Source: Roseovarius mucosus
GTDB taxonomy: Bacteria; Pseudomonadota; Alphaproteobacteria; Rhodobacterales; Rhodobacteraceae
Direction: 5' to 3'
DNA length: 64,000 nt
Assembly: GCF_002080415.1 (NCBI RefSeq)
Contig: NZ_CP020475.1
Coordinates: 62,001-126,000, forward strand
Position 1 is the first letter of the stretch, and the number at the start of each line of letters is the position of its first letter. Under the pieces are notes generated by a model. That model did no database searches, had not been told where the DNA came from, and saw only the letters and a program-made list of their open reading frames with translations. Position numbers and translations under genes: made by a program. Shown in pieces: positions 3,313 to 62,349 of this stretch.

Positions 3313-5640
3313 TCAATGGACCTGACCCCGCTCGGTCTCGCCATCCACGTCTGTCGCGCGGTGTTTTTCGTATTCGGTGTCGGCAAGATCATCGACTACC
3401 TGGCGCAAGGCCTCCGTATTGGCCGTCGCGGCATCGGATTGCAGATAGACCTTGGCGACATAGAGCCGGTCGAGGCGGTCCTCGAGAACCTTTTCCAGCG
3501 CATCGGCATCACCGGATGTGAGCCGCTCAAGTTGACGGTCATCCAGCACCCGCGCGATCTCGGTTCGGAAAGCGTCCCGCTCCGCCTCGGTCTCGAAAGG
3601 CGCGGACAACTCCCCCGCCCGCTCATGGTCCAGGACACGCGCAATCTCGTCTGCAAGGCGGTCGGCACGGTCAGACTGCGGCGCTGTTTCACCGCGGGCT
3701 GCGAGGAGTGCGTCGCGCGTGCCAGACCCGAGCCCGTCGCGCATCTCGGTTTCGCGGCGGACCTGATTGATGGCCTCCGTATCCCGGATCTCGACGACGG
3801 CCGCATAGGTCGCGCCGAGCCCGCGGGCGAGGTGGGACGGCATGTCCGGATAGCGCGCTCGTAAGTCATCCGTGACAGCATCTGCAACGGGCGTGCGGAC
3901 GTCGCGTCCCTCCATGATCCGATCGACCTCGCGGGTGATCTCGCTGGCGCGGGCCGCATCGGTAATGGTCTCCCTGTAGGGCTCAGACCGGTCAATCACA
4001 TCGCCAGGGCGTGCGAGCAGATCCGGGTGTGCCTCGAGATATGCGCGCTGCTCCGTCTCGATCCGGCGCTCCGCCCTTGAGACAACCTCCCAGTCCCGAT
4101 CCTCGATCTGCTGCGCGGTCAGGCCGTCTGCGCGCATCTCCTGACGGATTGTCCCTTCCATCGCCCGCACCGCGCCCTCATGATAATGGAACTGCTCGCT
4201 GACCGCTTCCATGACACCATCCCGGCGCAGCACGTTCTCGCGCTCCAACAGCGTGCCAAGTTCGACGTGCACATCGTTGAGAATGTCGCGCGCCTGCTCC
4301 AGATCGGCGCGGCGTTCGAGGTTCAGATCGCGCGCCTCAGCCACTTTGGAGAGATCATTGGCGATCCATTGATGCTCGAGCGCTGCATTTGAGGCGCCCG
4401 TCTCGATCCGGGCCACCACTTCCGATGTGCTGATCCCGGTGCCCCGTAGTGCCGCGTCAATGCGCGATCTCAGATCGGGCTCTGCCAGACGCTCGCGCTG
4501 GCTGGCGTCGATATTGGCTTCGGAATAGATCCCGCCCTTCGAGGGGGTGTCTGACAGCGTGGATGATCGCAAGCCGAGAGGCTGCATGTGCTGGACCTGC
4601 GTCTGGATCTCGATGAGGCGTTTTTCCAGCACGGGACGTTCCGCGTCAGACTTCTCGGCGATCATGCCCTGCACCCGCGCGAGCTTTTCCGCATAGAGGC
4701 TTCTCAGATCCTCGAAGCTTTGATCCTCGGCCATATACACATCTCCTGTTCGGTCCACCTGCCCGCCGCGCGCCAACACCTCGCCCGCGCGGAAGAGTGC
4801 CGCCGCAATATCCTCGCGGGCCTCCCGGGAGGCCTCCGCAGCAAGCGAATGGTAGACGGTTCTGGTGTTGACGATCTCCGCCAGCGTCCGGGTCAGGTCC
4901 TGCCCCACGCGTTCGCGCTCGCGGGGCGCGCGACCCTCTTCTTTCGCGGCGTAGACCTCGCTGGTGCGGGCTGGGTAATGCACAACCCCGCGATCCACCC
5001 GGCGCGTGGCTTCCAAGCGCACACCATACTTTTCTGCCTCCTCGACCATGGCGAGGCGGAAATCGTCATAGTTGAAGCGATGGTTGCGCCCCAGAAAGAA
5101 GAACTCGCCTTCCTGCGAGCGGCGGTTCAGCACCAGATGCGCATGGGGATGATCGCGGTCCTCATGCACTGCGATGATGTAGTCGAAATGCCCCTTATCA
5201 GTCTGGAAGAACCGCTCGGCCACATCCGTCGCGATGTCGCGCACATCCTCGCCCCGCGTACCGATAGGGAAGGACATGAGCATGTGGGTGGTCTGTCCGA
5301 GCTTGGGTTTGAAACCCGCATCCCACCGCTTGGCAAAGCGCTCGGTCAGGTCCTTGATGTCGCCCGCCTCGAGCTTCGCCTTGCCATCCAGGAACCCGCT
5401 CGAGTCGACGATATGGGTCGACTTCGTGGTGAGGTAATCGAGCTGGTTTGAGAGCTGCGATTTGGTATGCGTACCCCCGCCCCGGATCGCCTTGAAGACC
5501 GCTGGCCGATGCCCCGCAGCCGCGCGCGTCAGCTGGGTCTGCTTGGCCACGTGCAGCCCCTGCATCGAGCCCCGGACGCGGCTCCAGCCATCCCGGAAGA
5601 CCTCGCCCGTGACGGCATGGACGGCATCATTCAGCCGCAT
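3313..5640 (-). CDS. virD2: VirD2-like MOBP relaxase
   Basis: Relaxase that nicks oriT and pilots single-stranded DNA into the recipient. The N-terminal domain shows motif I with the likely catalytic tyrosine in QLDYLTTKS (Tyr about 69). The metal-binding motif III is HEDRDHPHAHLVLNRR (about 159-174), with the three-histidine signature of VirD2-type enzymes. The remaining 550 residues are long, charged and helical, as in large alphaproteobacterial VirD2 proteins. ATG at 5640 is chosen over the in-frame TTG two codons upstream. The start overlaps the end of the MobC-like gene, and the stop is just ahead of the virD4 start, so the three genes are translationally linked. Confidence 0.92.
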   Translation of the reverse strand: MRLNDAVHAVTGEVFRDGWSRVRGSMQGLHVAKQTQLTRAAAGHRPAVFKAIRGGGTHTKSQLSNQLDYLTTKSTHIVDSSGFLDGKAKLEAGDIKDLTERFAKRWDAGFKPKLGQTTHMLMSFPIGTRGEDVRDIATDVAERFFQTDKGHFDYIIAVHEDRDHPHAHLVLNRRSQEGEFFFLGRNHRFNYDDFRLAMVEEAEKYGVRLEATRRVDRGVVHYPARTSEVYAAKEEGRAPRERERVGQDLTRTLAEIVNTRTVYHSLAAEASREAREDIAAALFRAGEVLARGGQVDRTGDVYMAEDQSFEDLRSLYAEKLARVQGMIAEKSDAERPVLEKRLIEIQTQVQHMQPLGLRSSTLSDTPSKGGIYSEANIDASQRERLAEPDLRSRIDAALRGTGISTSEVVARIETGASNAALEHQWIANDLSKVAEARDLNLERRADLEQARDILNDVHVELGTLLERENVLRRDGVMEAVSEQFHYHEGAVRAMEGTIRQEMRADGLTAQQIEDRDWEVVSRAERRIETEQRAYLEAHPDLLARPGDVIDRSEPYRETITDAARASEITREVDRIMEGRDVRTPVADAVTDDLRARYPDMPSHLARGLGATYAAVVEIRDTEAINQVRRETEMRDGLGSGTRDALLAARGETAPQSDRADRLADEIARVLDHERAGELSAPFETEAERDAFRTEIARVLDDRQLERLTSGDADALEKVLEDRLDRLYVAKVYLQSDAATANTEALRQVVDDLADTEYEKHRATDVDGETERGQVH

Positions 5641-6220
5641 GGGCAAACTCCCTCAGCGCGGCCGTGGCCTGCAGCTGCATCGCGTCACGACGGCGGCGCA
5701 GGAGCAAATCGATCTCGTCAGCAGAATCCAGGATGAACCGCGCCAGCCCGCGCATCTGCGCAAGGCGCAATTCGGTGAACGCGGCACTCGTGCCCCCCAC
5801 GGCCCCCTGCCCCCGCCGGTTGGCCTGCGTCATCTGCTTGGCGATCTGCGCGACCCCATTGCCGACCTCGTGCAGAGAGGCGCGGTAGCGCGCCATCTCT
5901 GCTGCCATCTGCGCGTCCGGGACAAACACGCCGCCTGCCGCCTGAATGAGCCGCCGCAACCCCTCGGCACGGCTCTCGATTCCGGCTGTCGCAAGGACCT
6001 CGTCTAGCGCCGCCAACTCCGCAGCCGTGACCTTCACACTGACCGCTGCGACCGGGATCGCGGCGTCCGTCTGGCGCTCGGCATCGGCTTTCAAGACGTA
6101 GCGCACGGCGCGCGATGTGACCCCGAAACGCTCGGCCAGCTCAGACGTCGACACACCCTCCGCGGCCTCGCGGACGATCTGCATCTTCTCCGTCTCTGTC
6201 AGGCGTTTTGTTCGGGACAT
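5627..6220 (-). CDS. mobC: MobC-like mobilisation accessory protein with N-terminal HTH
   Basis: Probable oriT-binding relaxosome component. The first 55 residues form a helix-turn-helix (LAERFGVTSRAVRYVLKAD). The middle has a ribbon-helix-helix-like stretch (VSVKVTAAELAALDEVLATAG), and the C-terminal part fits a MobC-type helical region (VGNGVAQIAKQMTQANR). The length is 197 residues. ATG at 6220 is favoured because the upstream in-frame extension lacks a ribosome binding site. It is first in the mobilisation operon, overlaps the relaxase start, and lies next to the gene-free region expected to hold oriT. A promoter with TTGACA lies upstream. Assignment as MobC rests on context plus these motifs. 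Confidence 0.75.
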   Translation of the reverse strand: MSRTKRLTETEKMQIVREAAEGVSTSELAERFGVTSRAVRYVLKADAERQTDAAIPVAAVSVKVTAAELAALDEVLATAGIESRAEGLRRLIQAAGGVFVPDAQMAAEMARYRASLHEVGNGVAQIAKQMTQANRRGQGAVGGTSAAFTELRLAQMRGLARFILDSADEIDLLLRRRRDAMQLQATAALREFAHAAE

Positions 6221-6270
6221 GCGGAAGAAAGACCCCCTATTTCCTGCCACCTTCCACCAAGGCTGCCCCT

Positions 6271-6298
6271 ACCTTACGATAATATACCGATCTGTCAA
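6271..6298 (-). promoter_or_regulatory. candidate sigma-70 promoter of the mobilisation operon
   Basis: On the minus strand TTGACA (6298-6293) is followed after 16 bp by TAAGGT (6276-6271), about 50 bp ahead of the MobC-like start. The hexamer CTTACG occurs twice around it (6273-6278 and 6306-6311), a possible autoregulatory or relaxosome binding repeat. Confidence 0.45.
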
Positions 6299-6444
6299 TT
6301 TTATACTTACGTCGCCTTCAGGCTCAGGCAGCCTTGGTGTCCGCTTCACGCCGCGGCCCGCAGGGACGCGGCTCTGCCGCCCTCACCACCGGGCGACCCA
6401 CCTGTCCTAGGGGTCCCGTCCGCCAGCCCCGCCCGAGGGTCTGG

Positions 6445-6463
6445 CCGAACACCACGTGTTCGG
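6445..6463. repeat. inverted repeat with 8-bp arms
   Basis: CCGAACAC and GTGTTCGG separated by 3 bp, in the gene-free region beside the mobilisation genes. It is a candidate protein binding site of the oriT or of a regulator. Confidence 0.6.
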
Positions 6464-6525
6464 ACGGAACCGCGGGCGGGCGCAAACCCCACCGACAGGG
6501 CGGACAGGCAGGGTCAAGGAGGGCC

Positions 6526-6545
6526 AGATTTGGGCCCCCAAATCT
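6526..6545. repeat. near-perfect palindrome
   Basis: A 20-bp near-palindrome with outer arms AGATTTGGG / CCCAAATCT, in the gene-free region between the MobC-like gene and the 68-residue gene. Function unknown; could be an oriT-associated site or a hairpin. Confidence 0.6.
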
Positions 6546-6784
6546 CTGCCGCAAAAACCGGGAGGCCCTGGCCGATAGGTTTTTTGTGGATGGCCCCCTT
6601 GAGGCTGACAGGCCGGTCTATCGCGGCCTGGTCATTCCGGGCGGAGTGCGTCCGTTGAACGCGCAGGGACCGGCACCAAGGCGAGGTCGCTGCCGGCGAT
6701 CACCCGCGCCGGTGTCGGCATCCCTGGTACAGGGATCGGGCCGGCCCAAGATCGTCCTGGGGCGGCCCATCCTCGTCAGAGGAT

Positions 6785-6991
6785 TTAGTCCTGGGGATCT
6801 TTCGCGCTCGGTGGGAACATCACCAGCTCCGAGACCGCGACCGGGAAGTCGAGCTTGAGGCTGAAGAACTCCGATCCATCCCCGTTGCGGGTGTTGCGGA
6901 ACATAGCACCCACGCGCTGAAAACGGGTGCGCTCCTGGCCATCGGTGTCGGTGAACTTGACGGGGACGGTGGCGACGTAGTGGTTGGTCAT
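6785..6991 (-). CDS. small conserved plasmid protein, unknown function
   Basis: A 68-residue soluble protein without recognisable domain. The start is clear: AAAAAGGAGATATCC precedes the ATG at 6991. The sequence has alternating hydrophobic and polar residues (HYVATVPVKF, FFSLKLDFP), suggesting a small beta-rich fold. A decayed relative lies about 200 bp away on the other strand (7180-7353), sharing the segment MFRN and FSLK. This indicates a small paralogous family in the plasmid backbone. I do not recognise a function. Its position beside the presumed oriT makes a role in transfer or establishment possible. Confidence 0.75.
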   Translation of the reverse strand: MTNHYVATVPVKFTDTDGQERTRFQRVGAMFRNTRNGDGSEFFSLKLDFPVAVSELVMFPPSAKDPQD

Positions 6992-7179
6992 TTGGATATC
7001 TCCTTTTTGCGATGAGGATCACCCGGCACGGGGGCAAGAGGCCCGGTCGCAAGCGCAAATGCGGAGGGTCCGCGGCCAGCCGTGGAAGCCGTATTTGTGC
7101 TTGCCGAAGCGTGAGCTGAGGGAACGAACGGGCCGACCCCGTGCGATCCACATCTATAAGCAAAAAGGAGAGACCCGGA

Positions 7180-7353
7180 TGGCCCTTGCCATCACGCAGC
7201 AGCCACCTTCCGCGTCCACGTCCCGCCGAGCCTGGCCGGTGTGCTGACGGAGCCCGCCCGCGTGGATGCGATGTTCCGAAACAAGCCCCGAGGGACGCGC
7301 AAGTCTTCAGCCTCAAGTGCGACGTCTCGACCCCTCGCGTCTTGCCCCACTGA
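7180..7353 (+). pseudogene. decayed paralogue of the 68-residue protein
   Basis: A good ribosome binding site (AAAAAGGAGAGACCCGG) and ATG at 7180 open a frame that soon fails. Reading with frame changes restores similarity to the intact gene at 6785-6991: ATFRVHVP versus ATVPVKFT, RVDAMFRN versus RVGAMFRN, and VFSLKCDV versus FFSLKLDF. At least two frameshifts are needed, so it looks inactivated. It lies in opposite orientation to its intact relative, consistent with an old inverted duplication. Confidence 0.55.
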
Positions 7354-7502
7354 CGATGTGCGTGAGGTGCGCACCATCCCCAGCCCGCACCAATGCGGAT
7401 GGACCGAACACTGACGGACCGGGTAGAGCGATGACAGTGCCGACCGCCGCAGCCTGTCGATCTTGCGTAACCGACCGCACGCACCATGAGACATGACGAA
7501 AG

Positions 7503-7521
7503 GGCCGCGCCAAGCGCGACC
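7503..7521 (-). terminator. hairpin after the DUF2493 gene
   Basis: GGCCGCGC and GCGCGACC form a GC-rich stem around CAA, directly downstream of the minus-strand stop at 7530. On the minus strand it is followed by CTTTCGTC, so the U-tract is weak. Probable terminator. Confidence 0.45.
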
Positions 7522-7529
7522 CCCTCTCT

Positions 7530-8459
7530 TCAATCCTGCGCAGTCTTCTTCGCCGGGTCCGCAACCCGCATGACCGTCAGACCTTTCGCTTCCGCCTTCT
7601 GCCCGAGGTTCAGCGCGACCCCGTTGCCGCCGAAGAGTACAACCCCCGTCGCCGCGAACTTGTCGTCCAGCATTTCGTCGTTGCACTTGAACGGTGCCGC
7701 CCGCCCGTGCGCGGACCAGCGCGGATCGAAGCGCGCCTGCGCGATCCCGCGTGCCCGGGCCCACCGGGCCGCAATCATCTCCGCACCGTGCTTGCCACCC
7801 TTGTGGCAGAGGAAGATCTCCTGGTTGCGGTTCTGCTTGATCCGTTCGCGAACCTTGTCGAGCGTGTTGAAGATCACATCGACATCGGTCCAGTCGGTGG
7901 CGCCTGAGACGATCAGGGGCACCCCCTCGACTTTCGACTTCTCGGCGGTTTCACGGTCGTGCTGTTCGAGGAGTTGCCGTGCCTCGAAGACCGCCCCGGT
8001 CTCTTGCGCCCTGACGCTTGCGCGCGACCCGGCTGCCGGGATGAAGGCGTGGCCCGTCTCGATCTCGTAGCATTCTGCCGCCGCCTCGCTCATCACCTCG
8101 ATGGCGCTGACAATCTCGCGCAGCTGCACAAAGCGCGCCTGCGCCTCTTCGAGCGCGGTCTCGGCGATCTCCGATCCGTCGTGAGATTTTGCCAGCGCAC
8201 CGATCTTGTCGGCGGTGCGGTCGACTTCCTTGCCGAGTGCCACCTTGCGGCGCTGCAGGATCGTCGCGAGCCCATGGGCCAGCGGTTCGATCTCTGCTTC
8301 AAGCCCGGTCCCCCGCAGCTGCCCGAGCAATACCTCGAAGCTCTCGCGGATGATGCGGTCGGTCAGGATGTGATCCTCGGGGATCGGGAGCTGTGCGTCC
8401 TTCTCGGTCAGCCCGAAAAGCTCGATGGTCTCGTAGGTGTTCGCGGTGTCGTAAGCCAT
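7530..8459 (-). CDS. DUF2493 (YspA/SLOG-type) domain protein
   Basis: A 309-residue protein. The C-terminal third (about residues 185-305) begins with VPLIVSGATDWTDVDVIFNTLDKV and continues with EIFLCHKGGKHGAEMIAARWA. This matches the DUF2493 family, a Rossmann-like SLOG fold thought to bind nucleotide-derived ligands. The N-terminal part (about 60-175) is helical, possibly coiled coil, and rich in Glu/Ala. The ATG at 8459 follows ACTGGAGACCAGAC. Large DUF2493 proteins of this kind are common on alphaproteobacterial plasmids and are found in the early-transferred region of other plasmids. The biochemical role is unknown. Genes on both sides are separated by long spacers, so it appears monocistronic. 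Confidence 0.8.
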   Translation of the reverse strand: MAYDTANTYETIELFGLTEKDAQLPIPEDHILTDRIIRESFEVLLGQLRGTGLEAEIEPLAHGLATILQRRKVALGKEVDRTADKIGALAKSHDGSEIAETALEEAQARFVQLREIVSAIEVMSEAAAECYEIETGHAFIPAAGSRASVRAQETGAVFEARQLLEQHDRETAEKSKVEGVPLIVSGATDWTDVDVIFNTLDKVRERIKQNRNQEIFLCHKGGKHGAEMIAARWARARGIAQARFDPRWSAHGRAAPFKCNDEMLDDKFAATGVVLFGGNGVALNLGQKAEAKGLTVMRVADPAKKTAQD

Positions 8460-9631
8460 GTCTGGTCTCCAGTGTTCAGTTGCAAGGCCACCACGTGAGT
8501 GTGGGGGCATGGCCGAATGTCTGGTTTCCGAATCTGCCCGGGTCAGGGACGGCGCAGCCGCCGGCTTGCCGGGCGCAAAAGTTTTCCGTGCGCAACACCC
8601 GACACACGCGCACCTTCACGCACGGGACCGCGCCGCACCACAAGCGGCGCCCTCGCCGAAAAGTTTTGCGATCCTTGACGCGGGCTGATTTGGGGGCCAT
8701 CCGGAGGATATGCTTCTGCACTCATGTGTGTGTGTTTTGACGGTAGGTTTGCCCGACCCGAGCAGGCAAACGGCCCGACCGGACGCGGAAGACGGATGGA
8801 GCGGCGGGATCGTTTTGGCCTCGGGCCAAAACAGACCAGAGCGCAATCTGGCGGAGCGGCCGGGGAGGGACGTGCTCGCGAGGCGGGCAAACCGGGATGC
8901 CGGGTGCAACGCCGCGGTGAGGCCGCATGGCCGAATGCGCGACGGACCGAAGGGCCGTTCTCCCCTGCGACACGCGAAGCCGAGCTGGGGAGGCCGTTAG
9001 GCTTATGCCAAGGTTGATGTGCGGGCGACTACGCTGGCGACAATGGTGAATTACTTATCGCAGCATTCGACGTGATGGGCGGAGAGCCGACTGTGAGGGT
9101 GCGGCATTGCATGCGTAGAAAAGTGCTGATGCGGCCAGTCGACACACGAACCGTTACCGACGCAAACCATGAAAACAAGCCATGCAAAGTAGCCGGCATC
9201 GGCTTCGTCTGGGTCTGCAGACAAGGGCAAATCCCTGCGAGGTTCATCGGATAAAAAGGCAATAAACCTTGCATCAAGAAAGACTCCAACAGCCGAAGGG
9301 CTCGAATAAGGCCTATTTTGTTGAATCTTCAGCTTGAGGGTTCATCCGAGCTTTCAGCAAAAACCTCGCATAGGTACACTAGGTCCTGTATTTCAGATGG
9401 TACCGGTCAATGTCCCTGATGCGGGACATGCAGACTTCTTCTGCTGCGACAACCAATGTCTGTTCTGGAGTTGGGTGGCTGGCAGTTTTGGCGATCGAGG
9501 CATGAAAGAAAATCTTGTACAGCCGGGGCGCGCGCCCCTAAGGTAGTATATTGCATTGTCAAATATGAGAATGATTTCGATTGTCATATCGGCCAGATCC
9601 GGTGAAAATTACTCAAATTTGGGAGGGGTTC
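8460..9631. other. long gene-free stretch with a composition shift
   Basis: About 1.2 kb without a supported gene. The left part (to about 9000) is GC-rich; the right part is visibly richer in AT and merges into the TIR/SLOG island. Two imperfect inverted copies of a GCAAAAnTTTTCG-like motif occur at 8573-8588 and 8657-8670. No RNA gene or complete ORF with a ribosome binding site was found. Confidence 0.55.
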
Positions 9632-10123
9632 ATGGCGAGAAAGTGCTTCTATAGCTTTTATTACAACGAAGACAATTGGCGAGTTAGCACCGTTAAGAAC
9701 ATCGGCGCGATCGAGGGGCAGCCGCTTGTATCTGCTAATGAGTTTGAGGAAATCAAACGCAAGGGCGATAAGGCTGTAGCTGACTGGATAGCTGGTAACA
9801 TGGCCGGCCGGAGCACTGTCATTGTCCTAATCGGCACCAACACGGCGTCACGGAAGTGGGTAAAGCATGAAATTAAGTATGCCTTTGATAGTGGCAAAGC
9901 GTTGCTAGGCATCCACATTCATCGACTTCTGGACAGAAGCGGTAATACGAGCGCAAAAGGCGCCAATCCATTTGGTACTTTCACCGTCGGTACTGACAAG
10001 AAGCCCTTGACCAATTGGGCCAAGACATACGATCCGGCTGGGGTAGACAGCAAGGGCGTGTACGACACAATCAAAAACAACATTGAATCTTGGGTCGAAG
10101 AAGCTATCCGTCTAAGGGGTTAG
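9632..10123 (+). CDS. ThsB-like TIR-fold protein (MTH538/DUF1863 type)
   Basis: A 163-residue single-domain protein of the TIR-like family that includes ThsB of Thoeris, which senses phage and makes a cyclic ADP-ribose-type signal from NAD+. Visible hallmarks are the first strand KCFYSFYYNEDNWRV (residues 4-18), the IKRKGDKAVADWI helix, VIVLIGTNTASRKWVKHEI (residues 63-81) and LLGIHIH (91-97). Glu80 in WVKHE matches the position of the NAD-cleaving glutamate in TIR enzymes. The ATG at 9632 is preferred over an earlier in-frame codon because GGGAGGGG sits just upstream. Its 3' end overlaps by 20 bp the convergent SLOG-like gene. Lower GC than the backbone suggests separate acquisition. Confidence 0.85.
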   Translation: MARKCFYSFYYNEDNWRVSTVKNIGAIEGQPLVSANEFEEIKRKGDKAVADWIAGNMAGRSTVIVLIGTNTASRKWVKHEIKYAFDSGKALLGIHIHRLLDRSGNTSAKGANPFGTFTVGTDKKPLTNWAKTYDPAGVDSKGVYDTIKNNIESWVEEAIRLRG

Positions 10124-10682
10124 GTAGCAGGCTGCGACGGAAAAGGCTGGCGAACGATATCTCGTTCGCCAGATGCTGTGGGTAGTTGCCCTCATTGTAT
10201 TCGATCGCTGCAGCTGCACCGGTCGCTGGCACGGGCAGCACTAGGGCCTGTGGGTTATGCTCTCGAAAGAGCCGAGCTTCATCAAGGATGCCCTCCATGC
10301 CCCCGATCAGCACGGCTGCATCAAATTTGCGACTAGTCAGCATCTCAATGCGCATCCGCTCAATGCTGCGGCCCAGATCGTCAGGCACGGCCTCGGTGTA
10401 CCGAACATCGGCAAAATCGTCATTTTCGCGCGGGAATTTTCCTAGGAAATAGGCGCTTTGATAGATCGAAATGCGGTCGCTGCCGAGCTTGGCCGTTTTG
10501 GCATAGAGCGACATCAAAGGAGTGATCGCTGGGTGGCCGCCAAAAGTGATGTGCCCTCGGGGCAGCACCACCTCCACCAGTGCGCGGATCGCTTCTCGTA
10601 TTAGAAATACATCCGCAGTTTCAAAGAATTTGCGATCCCGGTTCGGTAGTGGGACGCTCGCGGAAAGGAAGATGTTGATCAT
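10104..10682 (-). CDS. SLOG-like Rossmannoid protein paired with the TIR gene
   Basis: A 192-residue soluble protein. Features are an N-terminal strand NIFLSASVPLP (3-13), FGGHPAITPLM at about 48-58, DAAVLIGGMEG at about 121-131 with a GG-x-x-G loop, and ALVLPVPATGAAA (146-158). This layout fits the SLOG superfamily, which binds nucleotide-derived ligands such as cyclic ADP-ribose isomers. The start is firm: its ATG overlaps the stop of the upstream TIR gene as ATGA (10682-10679), so the two are translationally coupled. Inference: it may be the sensor for a signal produced by a TIR enzyme, a split version of the ThsA SLOG domain. The exact SLOG subfamily could not be fixed by eye. Confidence 0.65.
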   Translation of the reverse strand: MINIFLSASVPLPNRDRKFFETADVFLIREAIRALVEVVLPRGHITFGGHPAITPLMSLYAKTAKLGSDRISIYQSAYFLGKFPRENDDFADVRYTEAVPDDLGRSIERMRIEMLTSRKFDAAVLIGGMEGILDEARLFREHNPQALVLPVPATGAAAAIEYNEGNYPQHLANEISFASLFRRSLLPNPLDG

Positions 10683-11851
10683 GTCAGCAGTCCTCTGAGG
10701 GCGTCGGGTACGTCTGCGACTGAAATCGTCCTGATTGGTAGATGCCCATCGAGCCACCTTAAATGCCTGACCCAATTTTCATGGAGTCCTCGGCTATCAT
10801 AAATAGCCCAGATTGGAGCGTCGGCAGCCTTGTGTTCGGAAATTGCGTCAAAGATGGTGTTGATCCGGTCAGAAGTGGGGCGGCCCACGGCAGGCACCAC
10901 CGCTAAAGAGCTACCGTTCTGGAGGAGAACAGAAATCCAGCGTTCGGGTTGAACAGTCGGTTCGAACGCTAAGTCACGAGCAGCGTCACAGAAGTTGTCC
11001 ACTAAGTGCGCGTGTCGAAGAGCCATCGCCTCGGCGCGCAGTTCTTCGGCAAGATCGCAAATGCTATCGACCACCGCCTGCTTGATTGTAGCGCCGCGCC
11101 CCGGCGAAGGGCCGGAAAAATCGGTAGCGAGAAGCTTCACATAGCGACTGAACGCGAAGTTGCGGTCTTCAACCTGCCCTGGCCAAAGCAGATGCAGGGT
11201 TTGAATTCCTAGCAGATTTGCTTGCGCCAACTCAGCCTTGGTCCAGCGGCCTTCCCTGAACCCCGGCGTGTCTATAAGCAGAATCGTATCGACGTCTGAC
11301 ATTCGATGCCAAAGTTCGGCTTGAAAATCGACGGCTGGCGGCACCGATCTTATGTCGATGAATACGTCAAACCCTCGCTTATCCAATTCCTCATAGAGGC
11401 GGTTGGCCAGAGGCTGCGAACCCTTGCGGCGATAGCTGATGAAGATCCCGCGATCTTTGCGGAGTAGCCTAAAGGTCTCAAATACTAGCGATGCTAGCCT
11501 TGGAATGTTGTCGCCATTCATTCCAACTTCGACCACGTTGATGTGCTGGAGTGCGTCGGGGATTTCGACCCCGACTTGAGTCTTTGCCGTCACAATAGGC
11601 GCGATAACAATGGAGTCCTGTTCCAACCGATCGAGCGGTTCGGGGACTGTTCTGTTCTGATTGCCGAAATAGATGCCGAACGCAGGCTTCTTCCGGTCGT
11701 AGCCGTCAGCAAAGGCACTCTCATCCAGATAGACGATCCCTCTAGGATCGATGCCCAAGTCCGTCGCGCGTGCTGCAACTGCCGTCTTAAGTGCAGCCAG
11801 CCTGGCGTCTTTGCCCCCCATGAGAATGATCTGGTACAGATAGGCTGGCAT
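10679..11851 (-). CDS. TIR-domain protein with extra N- and C-terminal domains
   Basis: A 390-residue protein. A canonical TIR domain spans about residues 134-225: GIFISYRRKGS (136-146), FDVFIDIRSVPP (161-172), DTILLIDTPGF (188-198), then RWTKAELAQA. The E207 in that last motif is at the catalytic position for NAD+ cleavage. The first 130 residues form another alpha/beta region (QIILMGGKD, SIVIAPIVTAK). The last 100 (SLAVVPAVGRP, APIWAIYDSRG, IRTISVADVP) look Rossmann-like; neither matches a family I can name. ATG at 11851 follows GGGAGCCTCAC; a longer upstream frame lacks such a site. It is the first gene of a two-gene operon with the SLOG-like gene. Probably an NADase effector or signal-producing enzyme in antiviral defence. 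Confidence 0.8.
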   Translation of the reverse strand: MPAYLYQIILMGGKDARLAALKTAVAARATDLGIDPRGIVYLDESAFADGYDRKKPAFGIYFGNQNRTVPEPLDRLEQDSIVIAPIVTAKTQVGVEIPDALQHINVVEVGMNGDNIPRLASLVFETFRLLRKDRGIFISYRRKGSQPLANRLYEELDKRGFDVFIDIRSVPPAVDFQAELWHRMSDVDTILLIDTPGFREGRWTKAELAQANLLGIQTLHLLWPGQVEDRNFAFSRYVKLLATDFSGPSPGRGATIKQAVVDSICDLAEELRAEAMALRHAHLVDNFCDAARDLAFEPTVQPERWISVLLQNGSSLAVVPAVGRPTSDRINTIFDAISEHKAADAPIWAIYDSRGLHENWVRHLRWLDGHLPIRTISVADVPDALRGLLT

Positions 11852-12128
11852 GTGAGGCTCCCCTGCACCTATCAGGCGCGTGGGTATCATTTCACAAATT
11901 ATAACGCTTTCAAGTGCTCCAGTAGTCGTAGGCCCACTAGGTAACAAATTCATCGCACAGTTTAGCCTTGGTGGCCGCCATTTGCGAGGATAACACCATG
12001 GGCCCGGCACAAATCGTCGCCCTGTAAACCGGCTCAACATCCAGCCGATGGGGAGTAGCTCATTACACCAGCTTGGGCACTATCGATCATACAATCGCTT
12101 CAGGCCCACCGTCGCCACATCAAGTTGT

Positions 12129-12152
12129 AAGCTTTTAACCAAAAGCTCGCAT
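12129..12152. repeat. copy 1 of a 24-nt near-repeat flanking the 12.2-15.7 kb genes
   Basis: Matches 15865-15888 at 21 of 24 positions, in the same orientation. Each copy contains a small hairpin (GCTTTT-N4-AAAAGC) followed by a CGCAT end. The pair brackets the lower-GC block of exported-protein genes. Confidence 0.55.
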
Positions 12153-12194
12153 TTCAGCTAAAGCTTACATTTAATGGCGAGCTTGCGAATGCCG

Positions 12195-12566
12195 CTAGAA
12201 TTCGGTGGCTGGGACAATCGGTAGCGTCCCGATGCCCAAACCTGTTGCGCAAACCACAAAATTCGATCCTGAATCCCTCTTCCTTATGTGAAGCGCGCCC
12301 ATGCCATAGGCGTTGAATTCGGCGTCTCCTGTGTACTTTTCCCTGTTACCCCATGGTGAGCCTCTGACCGACATTCCAGTGCCAACTTCGTATGTTCGAT
12401 CCTGTGGGCCACGAGTTGAATATGTGACGTATGCGGCCAAGTGATCTTCAAACCAAACCCAATCTTCACCAACTTCCCGGCAACGAAAATGGTCATCTGC
12501 AAGGCTATGGGTAGGGATATATGCGAGCAATAGTGTAGCGATAAAGCCTCGTTGGATATTGTACAT
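12195..12566 (-). CDS. small exported protein, unknown function
   Basis: A 123-residue product with a clear Sec signal peptide: MYNIQRGF, a hydrophobic stretch IATLLLAYIP, and a probable cleavage after HSLA. The mature part has two cysteines (FRCREV and FVVCATG) that could form a disulfide, and several aromatic residues. The ATG at 12566 is supported by AGAGG nine bases upstream; a longer frame to 12683 is not. It is separated from the upstream DUF4403-like gene by a strong hairpin, so it is probably transcribed alone. I do not recognise a family. Lower GC content than the plasmid backbone matches the neighbouring genes. Confidence 0.65.
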   Translation of the reverse strand: MYNIQRGFIATLLLAYIPTHSLADDHFRCREVGEDWVWFEDHLAAYVTYSTRGPQDRTYEVGTGMSVRGSPWGNREKYTGDAEFNAYGMGALHIRKRDSGSNFVVCATGLGIGTLPIVPATEF

Positions 12567-12672
12567 GGTCAGACCTCTTTTTCTGCATATGCGAGCGCCG
12601 GTAAATTCATGTTTTGAATGTAAGTGCGGATCATCACTACTCGTATTACGCGAGCCGCAGGAAGCCGAGAGT

Positions 12673-12703
12673 AGACGCCCCAACCTAACAGATTGGGGCG
12701 TCT
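12673..12703 (-). terminator. strong hairpin downstream of the DUF4403-like gene
   Basis: Perfect 11-bp stem AGACGCCCCAA / TTGGGGCGTCT with a 9-nt loop, 22 bp beyond the minus-strand stop at 12725. No clear U-tract follows, but position and strength fit a terminator between the two minus-strand genes. Confidence 0.6.
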
Positions 12704-12724
12704 GGCGGCATCTAACCGACCATC

Positions 12725-14245
12725 TTAGTTGTTCAAGGCACCAAAGGAAGCGGAGACGGCACCATTGGCTTCAGCCACCACCAACATTAGGCCATCCTTG
12801 ATAACCAGATCGCGCACACCAGCATTCACAAGCGCACCTGAGATGTGTACCACGCCATCAACGCTTTGATTCATGGCTGCGTTGGCTTCTGCGATACCTT
12901 CGGCGAGTTCTTCGCTGAAGTCGTACTTCAACTGATTTGCGAGCGCATCGCGGACGAACGGGAGATCCAAGACATCCATGAGGGTGTCTGCCAAACTGCT
13001 GTTGGTCTCACTGTCGAGACGCAGGCCTTGGGCGTAGATCGTCTGCGTGCTCTCATCGAGCGCAGGGAAGACAGAAAGCTCCACACGACCTTCCACGTCG
13101 AACCAATTAAAGATGTCGATTGCCTTCAGCCAGTCCGAACGGTTGTCAAATTGGACATCCGCCATCAGGCTCAGACCGCCATTGCCGTGCATTTCGATGT
13201 CCAGATCAGTCACCTTCAATGTGCCCTGCAATGCTATGCCTTCGTCAATTTCGAAGGTGAGCATATCAGATGGCACTGCATCCAAAAGTGTCTGAACCTC
13301 ACCTTCCTGAACCGCGATAGGCACGGCAAGAGAGAACTGGCCAGCCTCTGGTGCCGTATTCGCCAGTGGCATAAGCGCGACTTTCTCAACGTGCGGCTTC
13401 TCACCGACGAAGACACGTGTTTCACCCTCGAGAAAGACCTGCGTGTCGAGGCTTTGACCTACGACGTTAAAGCCAGAGACACCGACGGCTGTAGGCACAA
13501 AGACAGCCCAGGTTTGCGGGATTTTTGAGATCAGGATCGGATCTTGTACGTCCGACCAGATTTTTTCGACTTCAACACGCAGGTTCAACTCTTCCAACAT
13601 GGGAGGAACCGATGCTTCGAGCTTGGCCATTTCCGCGCGAAGTTTCGGTTCAACCTTGGACCCGATGGTCACTTTTATCATGTTAAGCAGGCGGACTTCC
13701 GGGCGACGGTCCCAGCGGAAATCGGAGTGTACATCCAAAGTCGGCTGCCACTCTGCATTGATGCCGGGGGTGGCGCTAATGAAAAAGGTAGCGTCAGCCT
13801 TGGCCGTTTCCTGAATACCGATTGTCTTGGCAGTTACGCTGGCGTGGATTGGCAACGAAAAGTTCAATGTGCTGCCGTTACCGCTGATAGCAAGGTCGCC
13901 GCGACGGTCGACATGGCCACGCAAGTCGCAGTACAGGTCTGGGGAGATCTTGGTCTTCACAATCTTGCTGTAAATTTTCAAACCACGGAACTCTGGGACC
14001 TTTGTTTTGAACCATTTGGCCTTCACGCAATGCACGTTGTTTTCGTTGAACGTATGGAGACGCCCGGCCAATGCCGCATTAGCGCGTGACTGGAGATGAG
14101 CCAGGTCGATGCTCAAAGGCACCGAGAGCTGGGATACTGAGACCAGGTCGGGATGCACAACCGGCACCACTTCGTTTGCCATTGAAGCGCCCAGAGGCAT
14201 GGCCAGAGCGCTGATGATCGAGGTCGTTGCAAAAAGCTTACGCAT
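12725..14245 (-). CDS. exported protein resembling DUF4403
   Basis: A 506-residue exported protein. The signal peptide is MRKLFATTSIISALAMPLGASMA, with likely cleavage after SMA. The mature N-terminus VSQLSVPLSIDLAHLQSRANAAL and the repeated beta-rich segments with a conserved LQG-type strand (GIALQGTLKVTDLDIEMHG) resemble DUF4403 proteins, which have a lipid-binding, TULIP-like appearance. That assignment is by eye. The start has AGGAGAAAGA upstream. It is likely periplasmic or envelope-associated. There is no operon partner: the next minus-strand gene is behind a hairpin, and upstream is a divergent gene at 14442. Lower GC than the backbone suggests it arrived with its neighbours. Confidence 0.6.
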   Translation of the reverse strand: MRKLFATTSIISALAMPLGASMANEVVPVVHPDLVSVSQLSVPLSIDLAHLQSRANAALAGRLHTFNENNVHCVKAKWFKTKVPEFRGLKIYSKIVKTKISPDLYCDLRGHVDRRGDLAISGNGSTLNFSLPIHASVTAKTIGIQETAKADATFFISATPGINAEWQPTLDVHSDFRWDRRPEVRLLNMIKVTIGSKVEPKLRAEMAKLEASVPPMLEELNLRVEVEKIWSDVQDPILISKIPQTWAVFVPTAVGVSGFNVVGQSLDTQVFLEGETRVFVGEKPHVEKVALMPLANTAPEAGQFSLAVPIAVQEGEVQTLLDAVPSDMLTFEIDEGIALQGTLKVTDLDIEMHGNGGLSLMADVQFDNRSDWLKAIDIFNWFDVEGRVELSVFPALDESTQTIYAQGLRLDSETNSSLADTLMDVLDLPFVRDALANQLKYDFSEELAEGIAEANAAMNQSVDGVVHISGALVNAGVRDLVIKDGLMLVVAEANGAVSASFGALNN

Positions 14246-14441
14246 ATTCTTTCTCCTGTCAGTGGCGATGCTCGTTTGATGCGGATGACATCGCCTGTTG
14301 ATGGTGATTCTTTTCTGGATCAGGTACTTCAGGAAAGGGGCATCTTGTTCTCGAATGGTTTTGACGCAGCCAAATGCTTGTCAGAATCAACGCGCGTTCT
14401 TAAGATCTAAGACCAGTTTGAAACTTAAAGAATGAGATGCT

Positions 14442-15098
14442 GTGACCACGTCGCTCACGGAGGTATATGACTACGTGACCTCGGTTGGGTCTGCGCGTAG
14501 TGAATTTTACGCGGGCATCGTTGATGCCGCTTGCCAAGACTATGGCAAGAAACAGGGCATGCACGAAATTGATAAGAACAAGGTGCTTGACGCGATTGGG
14601 GCCGCTACCATCAAGCAACTCAACCACAGTAACGTGGAAACGCTCGCTCAGTTTCTGTTTTTGATGAAGCTTTTTCGTCTAAACAACGACTCGGCACGTT
14701 TGCGCCGTTACCTTGAAGGGCACAACGAACGGCTGAAGGCAAAACTTGCGCGTTTGGAAACCCAAAACACGCGCTACACTGCCTCTGGTAAACCCGCGAG
14801 CAGTTTGCGTAAAGGACTTCTCCACCCTGAGCAGATCAACAAAATGGTCGATGAAGCAGACGATATGGGTCTGCGTTACGACCAGACTTCTCTAGGATGT
14901 TTATTGGCAGAGGTCATGTCACCGGCAACAACGCGCAACTTATTGATCCTGCTTAGCGAGTTTGGATTCTTGCGGCGGATCGGGAATAACACAAAGGTTA
15001 TCCGCTCTTTGGGAGTGCTTGAGAGGCTGTATGGGGATCGTGTGGGCAAGCTTATGGGGGAAGACGTAAACAGCGGTCTTGGGGAGATCAGCCAATGA
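14442..15098 (+). CDS. cytosolic protein of unknown function
   Basis: A 218-residue protein starting at GTG. It is mostly helical, with no signal peptide or membrane segment. Charged segments such as RRYLEGHNERLKAKLARLETQN (about 89-110) suggest a coiled coil, and the C-terminal part NLLILLSEFGFLRRIGNNTKVIRSLGVLERLYGD resembles a winged-helix-like region. I do not recognise the family. The stop overlaps the next start as ATGA, so it forms a two-gene operon with the exported protein at 15095. It is divergent from the DUF4403-like gene, leaving about 195 bp of shared upstream sequence. A DNA-binding role is possible but unproven. Confidence 0.65.
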   Translation: MTTSLTEVYDYVTSVGSARSEFYAGIVDAACQDYGKKQGMHEIDKNKVLDAIGAATIKQLNHSNVETLAQFLFLMKLFRLNNDSARLRRYLEGHNERLKAKLARLETQNTRYTASGKPASSLRKGLLHPEQINKMVDEADDMGLRYDQTSLGCLLAEVMSPATTRNLLILLSEFGFLRRIGNNTKVIRSLGVLERLYGDRVGKLMGEDVNSGLGEISQ

Positions 15099-15706
15099 GA
15101 TTGATTTTAGCAGCAATCTTTGCAGGCTTGGCAAGTGCCGCGGTTGCAGAGCCGGATGTTGAACAAGTAGCCGCAGCCTTTGCTAACGAGTTTCGTGCCG
15201 GAAACCTATTTGTTTCAGAGGCAGAGTGCCGAGCCCGGCTATCGCAGCGGCATGCCACCTTCGCACAAGTCGGAGGCGACAAGCTCGCGCCCACGGCCTT
15301 CGTTTTGGAGGCTAATCGTCTGATATGCGAGGCGCTGATGCATCAGGAGGCGATACCATTGCACCGCGCAGAGGCGGCTAGATTAACCGCAGAGGCCCAA
15401 AGACTGGATCAGATATGGCGCAGAGATAGGGCAGCCGACCCTGTAGGGGTTGTCGATTTCCCAGGCCGCGATGCAAGTCAACAACAGTTGCGTAGTGACG
15501 CCCGTTGGCAGCTCGAAACAGCCTATGCCAAAGGCTTCATAATTGCTGATCTACAAGCGGAAGCTGACCGTTTGTTGCGCCTCGCCATTGAAGACTTTGG
15601 CCGCTTTGGTCCTCAAAGCAAACGCACAATGCTGATGGCCGCCGATGCAGATGGCGAAAAGTCGTTGCAAGAAGGATTCCGTGATCTTTTGCCCCGGGCT
15701 TCCTAA
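15095..15706 (+). CDS. exported protein of unknown function
   Basis: A 203-residue product. The signal peptide MRLILAAIFAGLASAAVAEP has a likely cleavage at AVA-EP. The mature part is helical and charged, with two cysteines (AECRARL and LICEALM). The start overlaps the preceding stop (ATGA), giving translational coupling with the cytosolic partner. No family is recognised. A pairing of one cytosolic helical protein with one periplasmic helical protein suggests a shared role, but nothing in the sequence says what. Confidence 0.65.
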   Translation: MRLILAAIFAGLASAAVAEPDVEQVAAAFANEFRAGNLFVSEAECRARLSQRHATFAQVGGDKLAPTAFVLEANRLICEALMHQEAIPLHRAEAARLTAEAQRLDQIWRRDRAADPVGVVDFPGRDASQQQLRSDARWQLETAYAKGFIIADLQAEADRLLRLAIEDFGRFGPQSKRTMLMAADADGEKSLQEGFRDLLPRAS

Positions 15707-60943: not shown

Positions 60944-62349
60944 GAGGTGTTCCTTTCTTGCTGATCAGGTTCTGTTTCGAGTGGTAAAGTGACGGTCACG
61001 AGAAGACCGCCTTCGGTGCGGTTCGTCAGCGCTACGTCGCCGCCATGGGCCCGCACAATCGTTCGCGCGATCGACAGGCCAAGACCGGTCCCACCGGTTT
61101 CGCGCGAGCGGGATTTTTCGAGCCGGAAAAACGGCTCGAACACTTGCTCGAGTTCGGCTTCGGGAACCCCAGGTCCGTTGTCGGAGACCCGTATCTGGAC
61201 GTATTCGGCGTCATGTACGAAGGTGACCTCCGCCCCCCCGCCATAGCGCTGCGCGTTCTCGATGATGTTGCGCAGGGCGCGGCGCACCGATTGGGGACGC
61301 AAGCGAACGCTTATGCTGTTGGCTGTATCAAGGGTGAAGCCGTCGATCATGTCGGCCTGCAACTGCTTCAGGTAGGTTTTCAGATCCACCGTCTCGTAGA
61401 CTTCGGAGCTGGCCATGCCCCGTGCAAAGGCAAGCGTTGCATCGACCATCTCCTGCATTTCCTCGATTGAGGCGACAAGACTTTCACGCGTTTCGTCCTC
61501 GTCCACCATCTCCGCCCGCACCCGCATGGCGGTCAGCGGAGAGCGCAGATCATGGCCCAATGCCGCAAGAAGTCTTGTCCTGTCCGCGACGAAACGCGTC
61601 AGTCTCGCCTGCATCCGATTGAAGGCCTGCGTGAGGCCGCGCACCTCGCTCGGACCGATCAGTGGCAACGGATCGACGGCTTCCCCCTTTCCAAGCCTGT
61701 CGGCTGCGCGCGAAACGCGCAGAAGCGGTCCGGTTAGCCGGGTCAGAAGAAACCAGCAGGCCGAGACTAGAATGATCGCCGCCGTGATTCCGAAACTGAC
61801 GATTGAAGCCCATGGCCACTGCAACGGCGGCCGCTCGAACCTTGTTCCGACATTCAGCCACTGCCCGTCCGCCAGGGCGATCGACAGTTGCATTTCGATC
61901 GCGGAAAGCTCGCCCCGCATCATCGCGAGATGCATTTCGGCCATCTCCGGCGCGAGATGTGGCATCGGCGGAATGCCTTGCTCGACCTCGTGCAATTCCA
62001 CGCGGATTTCTCGATCGTTCGCGCCACCTAGTAGTCCGCGAACGCGCGCCTCTACGGCTCCACCGTCTGCATGGCTTTCATGATCGACAGCGGGAATGTC
62101 CGAAAGATCGAAACGTACCAAAGGGGAATTCGCCGCTCTCAGGATCGCCTGCTGCAAGGACTCCGGCGCCTCTTCGAGCAAGAGCGCGACGTTCGCGGCC
62201 CGGCCTGCCGCTTCGAAACCCAAGGCGGCGCGCACGGCGAGACCACGCTCGTCGACGAACAGCCACAGGCTGATCGTCTGTGCGACAGCAAGCGCCGCGA
62301 CGATCAGCAGGACCAACTGCCCACGAAGATTATCGAAGGGGCGCGGCAT
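60940..62349 (-). CDS. sensor histidine kinase of a copper-island two-component system
   Basis: A 469-residue membrane kinase. Two transmembrane helices (GQLVLLIVAALAVAQTISLWLF, about 10-31, and ASIVSFGITAAIILVSACWFLL, about 182-203) flank a periplasmic sensor with His/Met-rich PPMPHLAPEMAEMHLAMMRG, a plausible metal site. A HAMP linker follows, then the phospho-acceptor LLAALGHDLRSPLTAMRVRAE (His about 260), N-box NIIENAQRYGGG and G-boxes SDNGPGVP and ETGGTGLGLSIA. ATG at 62349 overlaps the regulator's stop. The His/Met-rich sensor suggests copper or silver detection. Confidence 0.9.
   Translation of the reverse strand: MPRPFDNLRGQLVLLIVAALAVAQTISLWLFVDERGLAVRAALGFEAAGRAANVALLLEEAPESLQQAILRAANSPLVRFDLSDIPAVDHESHADGGAVEARVRGLLGGANDREIRVELHEVEQGIPPMPHLAPEMAEMHLAMMRGELSAIEMQLSIALADGQWLNVGTRFERPPLQWPWASIVSFGITAAIILVSACWFLLTRLTGPLLRVSRAADRLGKGEAVDPLPLIGPSEVRGLTQAFNRMQARLTRFVADRTRLLAALGHDLRSPLTAMRVRAEMVDEDETRESLVASIEEMQEMVDATLAFARGMASSEVYETVDLKTYLKQLQADMIDGFTLDTANSISVRLRPQSVRRALRNIIENAQRYGGGAEVTFVHDAEYVQIRVSDNGPGVPEAELEQVFEPFFRLEKSRSRETGGTGLGLSIARTIVRAHGGDVALTNRTEGGLLVTVTLPLETEPDQQERNTS

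Follow-up and report, generated by a model that had tools for sequence, protein, structure and literature searches.

A minimal Thoeris type III locus of Roseovarius mucosus with a stand-alone SLOG protein encoded between two TIR proteins

In Thoeris systems of type I, the TIR protein ThsB is paired with ThsA, which unites a SIR2 and a SLOG domain in one protein and holds 3' cyclic ADP-ribose (3'cADPR) by an Arg and a Glu; in types II (transmembrane-macro ThsA, His-ADPR) and IV (caspase-like, N7-cADPR), messengers of ADP-ribose (ADPR) type made by a TIR protein act on a separate effector (PMC12847820, in the parts consulted). The locus considered here lies at positions 9632 to 11851 of a 64,000-base stretch of Roseovarius mucosus (positions 62,001 to 126,000 of contig NZ_CP020475.1; this whole stretch is called the window), and on its curated family matches it is a minimal member of Thoeris type III, with an operon pair that already bears the names ThcA and ThcB4. 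According to passages of a 2025 paper (PMC12390725, with a preprint and doi 10.1016/j.chom.2025.06.010 cited in the same paragraph), the phage inhibitor TadIII targets Thoeris type III, and a phage gene gives protection from this type; the type III of that paper may not be the one of NCBIfam. Curated models and a printed mention of type III thus exist, and no account of ThcA, ThcB4 or the type III mechanism was found among the papers listed in our literature search; the mechanism that we propose may already be known elsewhere. The locus reads as follows:

9632..10123, + strand: ThsB-like TIR gene, 163 amino acids; codon of the catalytic Glu80 at 9869-9871
10104..10682, - strand: thcA, stand-alone SLOG cluster-3 protein, 192 amino acids; Arg111 codon at 10352-10350, Glu135 codon at 10280-10278
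10679..11851, - strand: thcB4, TIR protein, 390 amino acids; codon of the catalytic Glu207 at 11233-11231
10679..10682, - strand: ATGA stop/start overlap of the thcB4 end and the thcA start, read directly
10104..10123, either strand: tail-to-tail overlap of 20 bases between the ThsB-like gene and thcA, read directly

The open reading frames of the window place the three genes where an earlier note on this DNA had put a TIR / SLOG / ThsB-like module, and their families agree with it. Its finer details were confirmed as well: Glu80 in WVKHE, Glu207 in WTKAE, a GGMEG loop in the SLOG protein, the ATGA coupling of the two-gene operon and the convergent overlap with the ThsB-like gene, where TAG is the stop codon of both that gene and thcA. 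For thcB4 we prefer the start at 11851, since GGGGAG lies upstream of it and homologues of about 390 amino acids align from near residue 1; a longer reading frame would reach 12040.

What had to be given up is the description of the system as unclassified. In release 20.0 of NCBIfam (June 2026) the pair is entered under Thoeris type III with the names ThcA and ThcB4, many relatives carry it together with further TIR genes, and the 2025 paper mentions a type III. The window's SLOG protein scores 213.7 bits with the ThcA model NF058525 (curated cut-off 110) and matches PF18180 (SLOG cluster 3, LD_cluster3) at 6e-61 in Pfam, with nothing found in PADLOC 2023 up to E 1. Its partner scores 381.1 bits with the ThcB4 model NF058526 (cut-off 220), matches PF13676 (TIR_2) at 4.1e-10 in Pfam, and is filed as ThsB by PADLOC 2023. 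The two are encoded side by side, as type III membership asks, with the ATGA overlap between them. Three regions can be outlined in ThcB4:

residues ~1-130: N-terminal alpha/beta domain
residues ~133-269: TIR domain
residues ~278-390: C-terminal domain

The ThsB-like protein has the features of a type I ThsB, namely a ThsB-type TIR domain with the catalytic Glu. It matches PF08937 (ThsB_TIR) at 5.4e-26 in Pfam and the PADLOC 2023 ThsB model PDLC00433 at 4e-64; its closest solved relative is PDB 8wcf (122.7 bits), followed by BcThsB 9b7d (66.7 bits). Glu80 aligns with Glu85 of BcThsB, and the column is Glu in all 11 aligned proteins, the window's included and four more distant ones omitted; ThsB carrying E85Q is inactive, according to the part of PMC10022894 consulted. 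As a guess from their neighbouring PDB codes, 8wcf and the ThsA entry 8wc0 could be partners.

The likeness to type I extends to ThcA. Its structure model (predicted local distance difference test, pLDDT, 89.1) finds the SLOG domain of ThsA in its best VIA rows, and two residues that are the same in all 41 proteins compared, R111 and E135, are the Arg and Glu that bind the ligand in ThsA receptors. The counterpart of ThsA E403 is E135 and not E130, the Glu of the GGMEG loop, and ThsA K388 has no clear counterpart. The difference from type I is that in the window the SLOG protein stands by itself and a TIR domain occupies the place that SIR2 has in ThsA: none of the three proteins has a SIR2 match, let alone SIR2 and SLOG together. 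Nor does any of them have a macro match, as the transmembrane-macro ThsA of type II would, or a protease match, as the caspase-like effector of type IV would; the likeness to types II and IV lies in the ADPR-type messenger from a TIR protein that we propose to drive a separate effector. PF18185 has no match in the genome, in a search run without a positive control. Agreeing evidence from fold, ligand residues, catalytic residues and neighbourhood thus supports the earlier note's idea of a Thoeris-type module in which the SLOG sensor is a protein of its own and TIR replaces SIR2, and the mechanism it proposed is now better founded and plausible.

From what was observed, namely how the genes are arranged, the families they belong to, the conservation of catalytic and ligand residues and the genomic linkage, we infer a messenger, a complex, NADase activity and phage protection. 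The ThsB-like TIR protein would sense infection and convert NAD+ into a messenger of ADP-ribose type, most likely a cyclic ADPR isomer, which ThcA would receive by binding. ThcA and the co-translated ThcB4 would be joined in a complex, where the messenger, once bound, would turn on the TIR domain of ThcB4; the activated TIR would destroy NAD+, so that phage growth is stopped. The logic would be that of type I Thoeris with ThsA divided into a receptor (ThcA) and an NADase (ThcB4), TIR taking the place of SIR2. To this whole mechanism, from ThsB-like messenger through ThcA receptor to ThcB4 NADase, we give a probability of about 0.55. With three genes in 2.2 kb, among them the genome's only PF08937 and PF13676 matches, the locus is compact enough for signal maker, receiver and executioner to be assigned with few mutants.

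The neighbourhoods of other ThcB4-ThcA pairs bear on how general this arrangement is. A first set of 21 loci (the window, L005-L018, L022, L023, L029, L030, L032 and L033) was joined by eight from a phylum-wide PF18180 search, seven of which were counted, giving 28; L050 was excluded because its PF18180 match was under the cut-off and neither ThcA nor ThcB4 turned up there, and L002, L003, L004, L019, L020 and others were excluded as copies or shorter cuts of counted loci. The 28 are partly dependent, L010 and L011 being close to each other, and detection of TIR genes in them is not independent either, because the TIR profiles were built partly from these loci's own TIR genes, picked by RefSeq name. 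ThcB4 and ThcA are adjacent in 28 of 28, and the order of the window is also that of 13 plasmid loci. At least one further TIR gene is present in all 21 loci of the first set and 2/7 of the second, 23/28 overall; in the remaining five none was found, and there ThcA is distant, one contig is short and one hit is marginal. A ThsB-type hit occurs in 19/21 first-set loci, three of the hits being weak (L016, where it is the only further TIR hit, L017 and L030; E 1e-6 to 6e-6).

From locus to locus, the further TIR genes differ in how many there are (1 to 4), in the subfamily they belong to and in their strand. The window has a single one, on the opposite strand, while many type III relatives have two to four (locus L006 of S. 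meliloti has four in addition to ThcB4) and some also a SLOG-patatin protein. Identity to Loktanella and a related contig is ~76% for the DNA of the pair and just 31% for the ThsB-like protein found nearby. With the pair constant and the TIR genes varying, these loci look like combinations of a fixed core, the pair, with exchangeable TIR sensors. We would tentatively generalize this, at somewhat less than even odds, to a relay from TIR to TIR, in which a TIR-made messenger reaches a second, NAD+-destroying TIR through a stand-alone SLOG protein, and a fixed receptor-executioner pair is joined to many different phage-sensing TIR genes, the window holding the smallest form.

Within the 4.38-Mb genome, PF18180, PF13676 and PF08937 have one match each (E <= 0.001), and since all three fall inside the same 2.2 kb, their co-location is beyond chance. 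ThcA itself is rare and patchy, being found in 6/390 genomes of the order and 2/385 of the class (own genome in each count) and in 28 of 72,556 plasmid records; viral contigs yielded two loci with ThcA relatives, and ThcB4 had no match among 50,697 phage records. Among 194 relatives, own genome counted, 38 have PF08937 and three have ThcA, and in all three the lone PF08937 match adjoins ThcA; two of the three share an identical 6,509 bases of DNA, so the independent cases of this adjacency are two. Weighing against a specific linkage, 35 of the 38 PF08937-bearing relatives lack ThcA. The earlier note would have been contradicted by homologues that mostly occur apart; for ThcA and ThcB4 the opposite was found, and for the ThsB-like protein such separation does appear, in the one direction just given.

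That separation is among the facts favouring the view that ThcB4 and ThcA make up a full system by themselves, one of two genes, with the ThsB-like gene an independent neighbour or optional extra sensor. The constancy of the pair beside TIR genes of changing kind, number and strand, the five loci in which none was found, the divergence of the ThsB-like protein next to a similar pair in Loktanella, and the opposite strand of the window's ThsB-like gene all fit it. We nevertheless consider it quite unlikely: the genome's only PF08937 match abuts the pair, a further TIR gene accompanies most of the 28 loci, and the tight convergent block is retained in the diverged Pararhodobacter locus L005, which has the same three genes with a gap of ~3 bases instead of the overlap and identities of 46% (ThcB4), 55% (ThcA) and 65% (ThsB-like) to the window's proteins. 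The frequency of multi-TIR loci such as that of S. meliloti could also speak for a mixed filament or complex of several TIR proteins acting jointly as NADase and regulated through ThcA, a subunit that would bind a metabolite derived from NAD+. TIR enzymes require self-association (PMC10022894, in the part consulted), and the number in the name ThcB4 implies that there are further ThcB subunits; the models listed for the ThsB-like protein and for seven further TIR proteins of L006 and L011 include none of ThcB1-B3, and one of the seven weakly matches the ThcB4 model (15.8 bits, cut-off 220). This joint NADase is the least probable of the alternatives, as PF13676 and PF08937 detect just two TIR genes in the genome, and the extra TIR genes elsewhere come from several subfamilies and differ between loci.

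A third possibility places the effector in ThcA, which would act on NAD+, AMP or the product of a TIR protein by LOG-like cleavage of the N-glycosidic bond, both TIR proteins making or pre-processing its substrate. ThcA shares the SLOG fold with the LOG phosphoribohydrolases, and its Arg/Glu pair stands at positions comparable to those of the LOG motif; it differs from them in having ~11% identity and immune genes as neighbours. Its GG motif has one residue inserted relative to the LOG motif, which counts against such an enzyme, as do the top VIA rows, which are ThsA receptors whose same Arg and Glu bind ligand. We regard an effector role of ThcA as unlikely and prefer its role as receptor for a TIR-made messenger; the conserved Arg/Glu pair offers a direct handle on this question.

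The source genome (three contigs, completeness rating 100%) carries the window on a contig of 180 kb, a probable plasmid. Genes for the relaxase and coupling protein of a conjugation region lie ~4 kb from the three-gene block, and from these and the A+T-richer patch below, the block is probably mobile or acquired cargo. Two further features of its surroundings are:

10147..10172, either strand: perfect palindrome of 11 pairs, within the 3' end of thcA and just past the convergent ThsB-like stop, found by pattern match only
9000..15500, either strand: A+T-richer patch, G+C 52.8% vs 60.9% in the rest of the window

The palindrome is a possible two-way terminator within coding sequence; a pattern search of 9000-12400 found six terminator-like sites vs 3.1 expected, and Rfam had no match at gathering score within the same interval. 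A near-DNA plasmid search gave one 80-base match in two records and nothing more. Window 5107-11615 is 100% identical over 6,509 bases to L002 99-6607, a contig of the metagenome-assembled HGW-Alphaproteobacteria-1, which would reflect either very recent transfer or the same element.

Proteins of ~540 amino acids that combine SLOG cluster 2 with a patatin phospholipase, six of six by Pfam, were observed within multi-TIR ThcB4-ThcA loci:

L008, 376-1992
L010, 1300-2916
L011, 1294-2910
L023, 4273-5898
L043, 5096-6712
L044, 9749-11365, - strand

These proteins appear to be phospholipases controlled by a signal that a TIR protein makes; the records of L008, L010 and L011 label them CBASS cGAMP-activated phospholipase, and no CD-NTase is listed in the stretches examined. 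At 8775-10549, L008 also has a SIR2-SLOG protein, a type I ThsA that scores 430 bits with 8wc0, and behind it a TIR gene; they lie ~3 kb from the type III pair, so that, judged by sequence, two Thoeris types stand side by side. At L049 4647-9735, a distant SLOG/TIR pair, whose SLOG protein has lost the equivalents of both R111 and E135 in the alignment, adjoins a protein of 1081 amino acids with NACHT, ParA-like and FGE-sulfatase matches, perhaps a STAND-driven variant. In the window itself, a different, second SLOG protein of YspA/cpYpsA type (PF10686, 2.7e-20) is encoded at 7530-8456 on the - strand, ~2 kb from the module and near the relaxase gene.
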